Source of the DNA: Mesorhizobium sp.
Lineage (GTDB): Bacteria; Pseudomonadota; Alphaproteobacteria; Rhizobiales; Rhizobiaceae
Reading direction: 5' to 3'
NCBI GenBank assembly: GCA_004020545.1
Contig: SAQE01000019.1
Location: 27,833-91,832 of the forward strand
Length of the DNA: 64,000 nucleotides
This document shows positions 15,319-49,491 of this stretch, in pieces. Below the pieces are notes generated by a model. The model did not search any database, was not told the DNA's origin, and saw only the letters and a list, made by a program, of their open reading frames with translations. Every line of letters starts with the position of its first letter. The first letter of the stretch is position 1. Position numbers and translations under genes: made by a program.

Positions 15319-15341
15319 CCAAGACTGCACAGCTTGGGGAT

Positions 15342-15496
15342 CGCCCCTCATCCGGCCGCTGCGCGGCCACCTTCTCCCCAAGGGGCCCCAAGGGGAAGAG
15401 GTCAGCGCCGGCGCCGACAAGCTCCTCTCCCCTCGGGGAGAGGTCGGATTGGCCCGAATTGCCTCTTCGCATTTCGGTTGGCAATCCGGGTGAGGG
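15342..15496. repeat. RIME-like intergenic palindromic element (copy A)
   Basis: About 155 bases bounded by CCCCTCATCCGG and its inverted counterpart GGTGAGGGGCCC. Internal hairpins CTCCCCAAGGGG and CTCTCCCCTCGGGGAGAG are visible. It fills most of the moaE / YbaY-META gap and belongs to the same family as copies at 21764, 27613, 30688, 36298 and 52606. Such elements are common, apparently non-coding and non-autonomous in rhizobia. Confidence 0.75.
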
Positions 15497-21763: not shown

Positions 21764-21917
21764 TCTCCCCCTCGAGGGGGAGATGGCCGCGAAGCGGCCA
21801 GAGGGGGTCGTCTCGCGTGGAGCGCCGGCCTCTTCTTTCGCCGCCTCATGGCGTCGCGGCAGTTGAGGCGACCCCCTCTGTCGCCTTCGGCGATCTCCCC
21901 TCGAGGGGGGAGATCGC
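21764..21917. repeat. RIME-like element (copy B)
   Basis: About 154 bases with two inverted arms: ATCTCCCCCTCGAGGGGGAG plus AGAGGGGGTCG on the left and CGACCCCCTCT plus CTCCCCTCGAGGGGGGAG on the right. Each arm is itself a palindrome. It fills the gap between the small membrane protein and the GST gene. Confidence 0.8.
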
Positions 21918-27612: not shown

Positions 27613-27790
27613 CCTCGCCCCCGCGAGAGCGGGGGAGAGGTGGCCGCGTAGCGACCGGAGAGGGGGCCTGCGCCAGCATCTAAAAATTGGGCTCCGCCGA
27701 GGGAAGTTCGAAGCGAAGGGCGCATTCCTCCGCTCCGTCTCGGGCTTCGCCGGAGCCACCTCTCCCCACTTCGTGGGGGCGAGGAAACGG
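27613..27790. repeat. RIME-like element (copy C)
   Basis: Outer arms TTTCCTCGCCCCCGCGAGAG (beginning about 27609) and CGTGGGGGCGAGGAAA (ending about 27785) are inverted; inner parts GGAGAGGTGGCCGCG and CGGAGCCACCTCTCC are too. It spans most of the gap between the helicase and the next small gene. Confidence 0.78.
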
Positions 27791-30491: not shown

Positions 30492-31520
30492 ATGGCCGAA
30501 AGCCAGCAACCCCGGTCCGGCGCCGCCTCGACGGCGGCGCTGGCGTTTGCCTTCGGCGCGGTGGCGCTCTGGGCGACCAATGCCCTGGTCGGTAACACGT
30601 TGCTTGCAAGTCATCCGGTCTCGCAAGTGCAGTTCCTGCAGTTCTGCGGCGCCGCGCTGGTTTTTGCGGTGATCAGGCTGACGAGCACTTCTCCTTCCCC
30701 CCTTGTGGGGGAAGGTGGATCGGCGCGCAGCGCCGAGACGGATGAGGGGTGTTCCAGCGAAGTGAGACGTCGGCGTTCCCTGAAACACCCCTCATCCGAC
30801 CTCGCTTCGCGAGGCCACCTTCTCCCACAACAAGGGGAGAAGGGAAGGATCCCGCTCGCCGCCTACGTGGTCGGCTTCATTGGCCTGGTCGGCACCATGG
30901 TGCTGCAATACATCGCCTTCGCTTCGATGCCGGTCATCGAGGCCAATCTGGTCGCCTACACCTGGCCGTTGATGGTCGCCGCGGCGGTCATCGCGCTCGG
31001 CCGCCCGCAGCGACCGCTGCTGCTTGGGCTGACTGCCGCGCTCGGCTTCGTCGGCGTGGCGCTGGTGATCTCCAGCGGACGTGCGTCCGCTTGGCTCGAA
31101 GGCAGCTTCGCCGGCTATTGCGCCGCCTTTGGCTCGGCGCTTTGCATGGCCTTTTATTCGCTCGCCGTCGGCCGTCTTGCCCTGTCGCCGGATCGCCTTC
31201 TGCTGCCCTCGGCACTGATCGGCGTCGCGCTGACCTTCGCCCGGTGCCTAGATGACGGCGCTGCAGACCTGAGCGGCACGCACCTCCTGCTCGGCCTCTA
31301 TCTCGGCGCAGGGCCGATGGGGTTCGGCTACTATTTCTGGTCGCGCGCGCTCAGCCTCGACCAGGGCGGCAGGCTCGCGGTCGTCGCCTATCTGACGCCG
31401 ATCGCTTCCACGCTTTTGCTTGCGCTGTCGGGCGAAAGCCTGTCGATGACGGCCGTTACCGGCGCCGTCCTCGTCATCGGCAGCTGCATTGCTGTAGGCA
31501 TCGAACGTCCGGAGGCCTGA
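30492..31520 (+). CDS. EamA/DMT-family transporter interrupted by an in-frame repeat
   Basis: 342 residues, versus about 290 for ordinary EamA permeases. The family pattern is intact: TM1 (AALAFAFGAVALWATNALVG), the two EamA repeats, and a C-terminal half with LGAGPMGFGYYFWSRAL. About 56 residues (roughly 64-119), between the second and third helices, are hydrophilic and derive entirely from a RIME-like element (30688-30848) that keeps the frame open. ATG 30492 was used; a GTG at 30432 overlapping the previous stop is an alternative. It probably exports a metabolite linked to the upstream oxygenase. Function may survive because the insert lies in a loop. Confidence 0.85.
   Translation: MAESQQPRSGAASTAALAFAFGAVALWATNALVGNTLLASHPVSQVQFLQFCGAALVFAVIRLTSTSPSPLVGEGGSARSAETDEGCSSEVRRRRSLKHPSSDLASRGHLLPQQGEKGRIPLAAYVVGFIGLVGTMVLQYIAFASMPVIEANLVAYTWPLMVAAAVIALGRPQRPLLLGLTAALGFVGVALVISSGRASAWLEGSFAGYCAAFGSALCMAFYSLAVGRLALSPDRLLLPSALIGVALTFARCLDDGAADLSGTHLLLGLYLGAGPMGFGYYFWSRALSLDQGGRLAVVAYLTPIASTLLLALSGESLSMTAVTGAVLVIGSCIAVGIERPEA
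30688..30848. repeat. RIME-like element inside a coding sequence (copy D)
   Basis: Outer inverted arms are CTTCTCC...CCTTGTGGGGGAAGGTGG and CCACCTTCTCCC...AAGGGGAGAAG, and inner arms GATGAGGGGTGTTCC and GAAACACCCCTCATC. It is the same family as copy F at 36298-36486. It lies wholly in the EamA gene and introduces no stop codon or frameshift. Confidence 0.85.
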
Positions 31521-34280: not shown

Positions 34281-34416
34281 GGGGCTCAAAACGCTCCGGC
34301 CGGCAACTGGTTCCAGTCCCGTCGTGCTTTGCTGAATGGTTCGCGGTCGCGCGCAGCTAGCCTCATGAAGGGCCTGGCTCTTGCGAAGCGCCGATGTCCC
34401 GTGCAAAAGCCCGCCC

Positions 34417-36294
34417 ATGCTTATCATCAACGACCTCTCGCTGCGCATGGCGGGGCGCCTGCTTCTCGATCATGCCTCGCTGACCTTGCCCGCCGGCACC
34501 AAGGCCGGTCTCGTCGGCCGCAACGGCACCGGCAAGACGACGCTGTTCAAGGCGATCACCGGCGATTTTCCCTCCGAGACCGGCTCGATCAGCCTGCCCA
34601 AGAACACGCGCATCGGCCAGGTGGCGCAGGAGGCGCCGGGCACCGAGGAGCCGCTGATCGAGATCGTGCTCAAGGCCGATGTCGAGCGCTCGGCGCTGCT
34701 CGAAGAGGAAAAGACCGCCACCGATCCGCACCGCATCGCCGAGATCCACACGCGGCTGGCCGACATCGACGCGCATTCGGCCGAATCCCGCGCCGCCACC
34801 ATCCTGGCCGGCCTCGGCTTCGACGATGCCGCGCAGAAGCGCCCGGCCTCGTCCTTCTCGGGCGGCTGGCGCATGCGGGTGGCACTCGCCGCCGTGCTCT
34901 TCTCCGAGCCCGACCTTCTGCTGCTCGACGAGCCGACCAATTATCTCGACCTCGAAGGCACGCTGTGGCTGGAGAACTATGTCTCCAAATATCCGCACAC
35001 GGTGCTGCTCATCTCGCACGACCGCGACCTGCTCAACCGCGCCGTCAACTCGATCGTCCATCTCGACCAGAAGAAGCTGACTTTCTGGCGCGGCGGCTAC
35101 GACCAGTTCGAGCGGCAGCTCACCGAGCAGCGCGAGCTGCAGGAAAAGAGCCGCGTCAAGCAGGAAGCGCAGCGCAAGCATATGGAATCCTTCGTCGAGC
35201 GCTTCCGCGCCAAGGCCTCGAAGGCCAGGCAGGCGCAGTCGCGACTGAAGGCGCTGGAGAAGCTGAAGCCGATCGCGGCGATCGTGAACGACACGGTGCG
35301 GCCGTTCTCGTTCCCCGAACCTGTCAAGACGGTGGCCTCGCCGATCGTGGCGCTCAACGGCGTCAATGTCGGCTACACCGAGAACAATCCGGTGCTGAAG
35401 AAGATGACGCTGCGCATCGACGCCGATGACCGCATCGCGCTGCTCGGCGCCAACGGCAACGGCAAGTCGACCTTCGCCAAGCTGCTCGCCGGCCGCCTGA
35501 AGGGAGAGACCGGCACGATGACTGTTGCGCCGGGGCTGAAGGTGGCGATCTTCGCCCAGCATCAGCTCGACGACCTGCGGCCGGAGGAAAGCGCCTATGA
35601 GCATGTGCGCCGGCTGATGCCCGACGCGCCGGAAGCCAAGGTGCGTGCCCGCGTCGCCCAGTTCGGGCTCTCGACCGAGAAGATGAACACTGCCGCCAAG
35701 GCCCTGTCCGGCGGCGAGAAGGCGCGGCTCTTGATGGGCCTCTCGGCCTTCGAGGGGCCGAACCTGTTCATCCTCGACGAGCCGACCAACCACCTCGACA
35801 TCGACAGCCGTGAATCGCTGATCCATGCGCTCAACGATTTCCCGGGTGCCGTGATCCTGATCTCGCACGATCGGCATCTGCTGGAGGCAACCGCCGACCG
35901 GCTGTGGCTGGTCAAGGACGGCGCCGTCAATCCCTATGACGGCGACCTGGAGGACTACAAGACCCTGGTCACCGGTGTTTCCTCCAACCGCCGCGAGCAG
36001 AAGGAGGCGGACAAGGCGTCGAAGGCCGACCGCCGCCGCGAGGCCGCCCAGCGCCGCGCCGCATTGGAGCCTTTAGCCAAGGAGATCCGCGCCACCGAAG
36101 CGCTGATGGACCGCATCCGCAAGCGCATCGACCTGATCGAGGACGAGCTCGCCAACCCGGCTGTCTACGAGAGGGACCCCTCGACCGCCACCCGCCTCGC
36201 CAAGGAACGTTCGCAATTGGCGCACACGCTGGCGCAGAACGAGGACAAGTGGCTGGCGATGTCGGCGGAGTATGAGGAAGGGATCGCGGAGTAG
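34417..36294 (+). CDS. ABC-F family ATPase (YheS/Uup type)
   Basis: 625 residues, soluble, two ABC domains. Domain 1: Walker A GRNGTGKTT, signature SSFSGGWRMR, Walker B LLLLDEPTNYLD. Domain 2: Walker A GANGNGKST, signature ALSGGEKAR, Walker B LFILDEPTNHLD. A charged linker (KSRVKQEAQRKHMESFVERF) lies between them, and a coiled-coil C-terminal extension (about 530-615) follows. ABC-F proteins act on the ribosome (translation factors or antibiotic protection), not in transport. ATG 34417 begins the first domain directly. It is followed by RIME-like copy F and a molybdoenzyme gene. Confidence 0.93.
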   Translation: MLIINDLSLRMAGRLLLDHASLTLPAGTKAGLVGRNGTGKTTLFKAITGDFPSETGSISLPKNTRIGQVAQEAPGTEEPLIEIVLKADVERSALLEEEKTATDPHRIAEIHTRLADIDAHSAESRAATILAGLGFDDAAQKRPASSFSGGWRMRVALAAVLFSEPDLLLLDEPTNYLDLEGTLWLENYVSKYPHTVLLISHDRDLLNRAVNSIVHLDQKKLTFWRGGYDQFERQLTEQRELQEKSRVKQEAQRKHMESFVERFRAKASKARQAQSRLKALEKLKPIAAIVNDTVRPFSFPEPVKTVASPIVALNGVNVGYTENNPVLKKMTLRIDADDRIALLGANGNGKSTFAKLLAGRLKGETGTMTVAPGLKVAIFAQHQLDDLRPEESAYEHVRRLMPDAPEAKVRARVAQFGLSTEKMNTAAKALSGGEKARLLMGLSAFEGPNLFILDEPTNHLDIDSRESLIHALNDFPGAVILISHDRHLLEATADRLWLVKDGAVNPYDGDLEDYKTLVTGVSSNRREQKEADKASKADRRREAAQRRAALEPLAKEIRATEALMDRIRKRIDLIEDELANPAVYERDPSTATRLAKERSQLAHTLAQNEDKWLAMSAEYEEGIAE

Positions 36295-36297
36295 GGG

Positions 36298-36486
36298 TCC
36301 CCCTTCTCCCCTTGTGGGAGAAGGTGGCCGCGAAGCGGCCGGATGAGGGGTGTTCCAGCTTGACGCAACCTTCGCAAGCGTTGGAGGCGCAACGGGATCG
36401 TCACCGCCTCATTCCTTCCAGCACCCCTCGTCCGTCTCGGCGCTTCGCGCCGATCCACCTTCTCCCACAAAGGGAGAAGGGAAGGA
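36298..36486. repeat. RIME-like element (copy F)
   Basis: Same design as copy D: CCCCTTCTCCCCTTGTGGGA at the left, then GAAGGTGGCCGCG, GGATGAGGGGTGTTCC, the inner inverted CACCCCTCGTCC, and CCACCTTCTCCCACAAAGGG at the right. It occupies the gap between the ABC-F and molybdoenzyme genes; a long open frame in this gap (from 36350) is repeat-derived and not a true N-terminus. Confidence 0.85.
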
Positions 36487-48859: not shown

Positions 48860-48982
48860 ACACATTTTCGTGATTGGAAATGGCAACGGGGCCGACCCAT
48901 CTCGGGGTGGTCCGAGCGACGCGAATTTCCATTTCGGCACGCCACTTGACGGACAGGATTTTGAGAATCTGGAGTACCTAAA

Positions 48983-49228
48983 ATGAACAAGATTGCTCTT
49001 ACCGCCGCTGCCCTTCTCGTTGCCACGGGCAGCGCCTTCGCCGGCTCCGACCATTACGGTTCGGACAACGTCAACCAGCCGGCCGTTACCCAGTCGGTCG
49101 CGCCCCAGTCCGGCGACAACATCGACCGCAGGATCACCGGCTCGATCCGCAAGTTCGAACAGCGCGATCTCAAGATCACGCCCGACCAGAACCAGCCGGA
49201 ATCCGGCCACGGCATCTGGGGCCGCTAA
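48983..49228 (+). CDS. DUF680 exported protein, copy 1
   Basis: 81 residues. The signal peptide (MNKIALTAAALLVATGSAFA) is followed by AGSDHYGSDNVNQPA, the DUF680 signature, and a C-terminus ending GHGIWG-R. DUF680 is a Mesorhizobium-centred family of small periplasmic proteins without known function. The ribosome-binding site is CTGGAGTACC. The first 20 codons and the leader are almost identical to those of copy 2, pointing to a recent duplication. Confidence 0.87.
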   Translation: MNKIALTAAALLVATGSAFAGSDHYGSDNVNQPAVTQSVAPQSGDNIDRRITGSIRKFEQRDLKITPDQNQPESGHGIWGR

Positions 49229-49284
49229 ACCGGCTTCCGTCCCGAACCAACCAAGCATCAACATTCAAATCCGGAGTAGCTAAA

Positions 49285-49491
49285 ATGACCAAGATCGCTC
49301 TTACCGCCGCCGCCCTTCTGGTTGCCACCGGTGCCGCTTTCGCCGGCTCCGACAACTACGGCTCGGCCAACGCCAACCAGCCGGCCGCTTCGGTCGACAC
49401 CTCGTTCACCGCTTCGGTCAAGAAGTCGGATGCGAACGTCCAGAAGCCGCTGACCCAAGGCGCCGACCGCGACCTCTTCGGCAACCACTAA
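49285..49491 (+). CDS. DUF680 exported protein, copy 2
   Basis: 68 residues; the signal and first mature residues (AGSDNYGSANANQPA) match copy 1 but the C-terminal half is shorter and ends DRDLFGNH. The leader CCGGAGTAGCTAAA copies that of copy 1. A strong terminator follows (49517-49547), so copies 1 and 2 form one transcript or two short ones. Confidence 0.87.
   Translation: MTKIALTAAALLVATGAAFAGSDNYGSANANQPAASVDTSFTASVKKSDANVQKPLTQGADRDLFGNH

Follow-up and report, generated by a model that had tools for sequence, protein, structure and literature searches.

A palindromic repeat lying in frame within a Mesorhizobium EamA-type transporter gene, at a site holding several cassettes in two orientations

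A repeat element of a dispersed palindromic family lies in frame inside an EamA/DMT-type transporter gene of Mesorhizobium, in the loop between the second and third transmembrane helices, and across species of the genus the same site carries cassettes of at least four types and two orientations. The case described here was found in a 64,000-nt stretch of DNA (the window), in which the gene spans 30492-31520 on the + strand. We consider it probable that an old in-frame insertion has been tolerated in this loop and has since been swapped or shortened many times, with selection on the transporter holding the reading frame.

The gene encodes a 342-aa product that scores above the curated cut-off of the Pfam EamA profile (60.5 bits against 28.2, E 2.8e-16). 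The element, of cassette type A, occupies 30688-30848 (+ strand, limits approximate), 161 nt that are read as about SPSPLVGEGGSARSAETDEGCSSEVRRRRSLKHPSSDLASRGHLLPQQGEKG, and separates a 5´ part with TM1 and TM2 (30492-30687, +) from a 3´ part that runs from TM3 to the C-terminus (30849-31520, +). The frame crosses the element with no stop and no frameshift, as claimed by a sequence-only reading of this DNA. That reading had given bounds of 30681-30848 and about 56 residues; the right end stands, while the left end belongs at about 30688 and the peptide coded by the element has ~53 residues (SPSPLVGEGG...LLPQQGEKG), with a net gain of ~44 residues relative to insert-free orthologs. It had also placed the insert between TM2 and TM3, in agreement with helices predicted at residues 43-65 and 120-143, between which residues 66-119 are unstructured in an AlphaFold model that is poor (pLDDT 49) and thus unfit for a fold search. 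The resemblance of the 342-aa protein to YddG was below the cut-off; a profile lacking most insert columns aligned to 5i20_A (E 9.4e-15), with the gap falling at the insert region. We take 5i20_A to be the YddG transporter, the TM2-TM3 loop of which is presumably cytoplasmic. A cytoplasmic loop would be fitted by the arginine-rich inserts in both orientations, and the element-coded loop is probably extra, basic and unfolded.

As RNA, the element is predicted to form a single long stem with three hairpins (MFE -108.7 kcal/mol, z -10.4, 200 shuffles). The outer stem provides terminal inverted repeats, its left strand at 30688-30718 and its right strand at 30815-30847, and encloses a first small hairpin (30720-30736), a central long hairpin whose centre tells the cassette types apart (30739-30798) and a second small hairpin (30800-30814; all on the + strand). 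The right strand includes an extra in-frame CAA (QQ) absent from the other carriers tabulated by insert peptide. In L058, L051, L045, L052 and L070 the stem strands of the small hairpin are swapped relative to other alleles (CTCGC..GCGAG versus GAGC..GCTC), as if flipped in place. No target site duplication of 5 bp or more was detected in 87 copies and shorter ones were at chance level; the stem extends ~5 nt past the ends used and the slack was 4 nt, so a duplication further out could escape.

In the genome of origin (7.0 Mb), the element is present at at least 40 places (92 BLAST matches, E<=0.001, with matches on the two strands or to the two arms of a copy merged into one count), a minimum figure, as scoring covered 40 of 173 candidates. 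Matches at E<=1e-8 were obtained in 32 of 151 genomes and 25 of 109 genera of the family, own genus counted, and partial matches in four records of a plasmid collection; in Rfam the sole matches were microRNA models below the gathering score. The proposal that the element is otherwise confined to intergenic DNA was borne out by the copies tested: none of 67 others (27 of the own-genome places and 40 chosen from six other genomes) was gene-internal by an imperfect filter, which was limited to frames running open across the copy and extending 40 codons or more to either side, and whose GC3-GC2 rule just missed the EamA gene of the window itself (17 against a threshold of 18). Four frames (L002, L007, L209 and L229) passed this loose rule and, being without the GC3>GC1>GC2 order on both sides, were rejected by eye as gene-internal copies. 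The window holds a second, intergenic copy of the family at 36305-36481, the neighbours of which look by eye like an ABC-F ATPase (34381-36294) and a molybdopterin oxidoreductase; a listed ORF start at 36350 falls within this copy, and the true start is probably further downstream. A repeat scan of the window also returned partial relatives of the repeat arms at 15338-15396, 21764-21807 and 27621-27664, as well as a 120-nt direct repeat, 87% identical (48966-49085 and 49268-49387, spacing 302 nt).

Orthologs were collected from 146 genomes of the genus, own genome included, using only the 3´ part of the protein as query (E<=1e-40), which kept the search independent of the condition of the junction. 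The gene was present in 102 genomes, and all 102 loci were read and sorted by peptide, DNA and BLAST. In the comparison with insert-free Mesorhizobium loci that the sequence-only reading suggested, 42 of the orthologs have the element, whole or as a remnant, at this site, and 60 have none. The carriers fall into type A, in the orientation of the window (22, taking in six of other subfamilies: L043, L044, L063, L064, L068 and L094), type B, in the opposite orientation (12), short remnants alone (7) and one long composite; a long insert is found in 35 of the 42. Named records bearing an insert include M. loti UFLA 01-765, M. tamadayense, M. hawassense and M. silamurunense, and of 247 genomes drawn more widely from the family, 4 matched at E<=1e-60, every one in Mesorhizobium. 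The composite (L034, the same as L142, M. tamadayense) is a different long in-frame insert at this site, partly related to the element. Given the 42 carriers, a recent strain-specific insertion is ruled out, and the varied cassettes in both orientations indicate an old, repeatedly rewritten site and no single event.

The frame has been kept across this variation. In 40 of the 41 carriers that can be judged, the insert leaves both halves of the gene in a common frame; L057 is left out on account of a run of N. The exception is L038, a one-contig genome in which the two halves do not share a frame across the insert and which likely has a broken copy. Among the 41 in-frame members of the clade (the 40 carriers plus insert-free L046, with L038 and L057 outside), 19 lengths occur, and on the tree they require at least 30 length changes, each by a multiple of three. 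In 40 insert-bearing species, pN/pS is 0.22 for the 5´ part (49 codons used in the tree) and 0.26 for the 3´ part (from LVGTM on), compared with 0.19 and 0.22 in species without the insert. The upstream constraint weighs most here, since TM1 and TM2 would matter only if the ribosome continued through the insert; together, frame keeping and constraint on both halves suggest that the insert is translated.

Presence and absence of the insert require two changes on the flank tree, most simply one gain and one loss; a strict clade of all 42 carriers is rejected (p-AU 7.5e-9), with insert-free L046 nested inside. Orientation (A versus B) requires 11 changes in 34 genes on this tree, and B as a single clade on the flanks is rejected (p-AU 4e-39). 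In the element trees, which have few columns and weak support, the B elements cluster (97 in one, 99/94 in another with two long-branched copies from other loci inside), while the type A copies are not one clade (6 and 10 changes), L057 and L058 falling among other copies. Sister species carry opposite types in L066/L070 (support 100), L033/L039 (99) and L054/L060 (96), with the flanks of L066 and L070 differing by ~4%. We ruled out that type B is a plain flip of type A, since their centres, in opposite orientations, differ and come from different subfamilies; the B centre was not found in the other copies compared, with that of L251 alike in part. Cassette type was not associated with flank variants in any of nine bins (P 0.45-0.79), including the 47 nt beside the left edge, in a test of 28 genes (six of other subfamilies dropped) that would miss weak linkage and whose right-hand bins start at LVGTM, ~20-40 nt past the element. 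Exchange carrying long flanking tracts is unsupported by this test, and the conflict of orientation with the gene tree, taken with the absence of flank association, means that the element alone seems to have been exchanged.

Similarities among the inserts bear on where the cassettes came from. Of five short type A inserts compared from other species, four resemble that of the window at 95-97% and the fifth (L053) at 90%, while the best non-orthologous full-length copy reaches 93% among the matches listed from ten genomes (88% in the own genome), and shorter non-orthologous pieces among those listed reach 95%. For type B, the insert of L070 is matched at 94% by that of L039 and at 91% by that of L037, and one copy from another locus reaches 92%, such that orthologous and other copies overlap in similarity. 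The type C insert (L043) has its closest copy at another locus of the same genome (90%), orthologous inserts following at 87% and 85%, and for the L044 element nothing above 85% was found across six genomes. On these similarities, it is type A that exchange between species at the site fits best, and other loci may also act as donors by conversion. Mean divergence of the untrimmed inserts (0.09-0.14) is below synonymous flank divergence (0.24-0.40), as expected if elements were exchanged after the species split; the L040/L041 pair is reversed (0.11 for the insert, 0.08 for the flank).

Could the gene be a decaying pseudogene, or two separate genes, with an open frame through a GC-rich repeat by chance? 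Among oriented copies taken from 86 other loci (170 in all), 88 were open and 35 of these were also in phase at the right end, a generous null that includes 40 loci chosen for long open frames and from which an unrecorded number of copies with unrecognisable ends or frame were dropped. The own genome provided 25 distinct copies (window copy, two duplicates and two partial copies excluded), of which 10 were open in that frame. Open frames through the repeat are thus common, and a single in-frame insertion is by itself weak evidence; the broken frame of L038 also fits chance. Against this, the frame is kept in all other determinable carriers over 30 length changes, pN/pS is low on both sides, and TM1-TM2 by itself would make no EamA protein, such that we regard this explanation as hardly credible. 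The sequence-only reading had named a pseudogene as the outcome that would undo it; in this genome the gene is not a pseudogene. It is also very unlikely, in our judgement, that the loop has been recruited, with a basic peptide or an mRNA hairpin tuning the transporter and maintained by selection. Retention of a long insert in 35 of the 42 carriers would fit recruitment, as would hairpins not clearly weaker than elsewhere (p 0.13, 14 of 34 type A and B inserts scorable against 57 other copies), and the 12 type B inserts have a third-position change ratio of 2.03 (1.66-2.46), compared with 1.12 (1.05-1.21) in 62 other copies in the same frame. However, the 16 type A inserts show no such excess (1.32, 0.90-1.83, versus 1.56 in the control), pN/pS for six short type A copies is 1.93, and in-frame deletion down to a few residues (seven carriers have short remnants only) and full absence (L046) both occur at the site. 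Because pN/pS of the trimmed inserts disagrees between groups (0.29-0.58 in those other than the short type A copies), we make no claim of selection on the peptide; the sequences are also related, so these counts are not independent. We read the element-coded peptide as a tolerated passenger and do not rely on the weak hint of selection for type B.

An insertion hot spot would explain the diversity differently, through independent insertions of different copies in many lineages and in either orientation, with only the in-frame survivors seen. The number of cassette types and their two orientations are consistent with this, as are the left junction of type B, which differs from that of type A, and the type C and L044 elements, which are no nearer to orthologous inserts than to other copies. 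Presence nevertheless maps to one clade with two changes, most same-type A inserts are closer to that of the window than is any other full-length copy among the matches listed, and L053, L043 and L044 combine a B-like left edge with other interiors, so that junction and interior types are mixed. We therefore consider a hot spot unlikely, although less so than the two explanations above. A bolder extension, which we think quite unlikely, is that the TM2-TM3 loop is a natural cassette slot, with single-element swaps between species or loci, in either orientation, within a live frame, and with at least type B under protein-level selection, whereby a non-coding repeat family would supply interchangeable peptide modules.

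The reading we prefer, an old tolerated insertion that has been repeatedly rewritten, can be set out as a series of events. In the ancestor of one clade, a mobile palindromic repeat would have entered a codon in a short TM2-TM3 loop. With the frame left open, the ribosome would read through the element and the protein would gain an extra loop, presumably neutral or nearly so in effect. Later, family members of either orientation would have replaced the resident copy and hairpins would have been lost, with each swap apparently reaching no further than the element itself and a few adjoining bases on the left. The arms of the element would offer the simplest route of exchange, by recombination or template switching, and frame-breaking outcomes would be purged by selection on the transporter.

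Several known systems are similar in form. Rickettsia palindromic elements are ~105-150 bp long and occur both between genes and in frame inside conserved protein genes, and an RPE-bearing product, Gmk, is reported to be active (PMC10969869, PMC2229807). The likeness to these elements noted by the sequence-only reading is borne out in that a palindromic repeat lies in frame inside a conserved, constrained protein gene, and in this sense of form the element works like an RPE. The present case differs in involving one gene, many rhizobial species and several cassettes in two orientations at one site. GTAG/CGTC REPs, units of 20-40 bp, one end of which bears a GTAG or CGTC tag, are described as lying wholly within ORFs in several species, with some clusters coding for 43-82 residues and with different REPs at about one site in Xanthomonas recB (PMC3733652). 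Our element is instead ~150 bp, with arms CCTTCTCC...GGAGAAGG and no terminal GTAG or CGTC when its ends are read directly. The RIME (Rhizobium-specific intergenic mosaic elements) are rhizobial intergenic palindromic mosaic repeats of a size similar to that of the element. By description only, the two are alike in size, palindromy and rhizobial dispersal, with RIME described as intergenic; RIME are named among the annotated intergenic repeats of S. meliloti in PMC2573895. MITE-type elements (ERIC, Correia) are described in PMC2229807 as short non-autonomous inverted-repeat elements that can form in-frame fusions. They share with our element an inverted-repeat structure read in frame and differ in that no target duplication was found here, by a weak test.

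Among the best-ranked titles in the open-licence literature, none reported a rhizobial in-frame palindromic repeat. The expectation that this would be a rare rhizobial case thus stands as to rarity; in view of the in-frame palindromic repeats known outside Rickettsia (PMC3733652), it is not unprecedented. An in-frame mobile repeat is known in kind, and what is unusual is an old, many-species, multi-cassette, two-orientation site held in frame. The site offers a many-species series for a question open since the discovery of RPEs, namely whether a non-coding palindromic repeat can become and stay protein sequence. With ~40 natural variants at one position, in two orientations and several types, together with remnants and empty sites, tolerance, selection and the mechanism of exchange become testable in soil bacteria.
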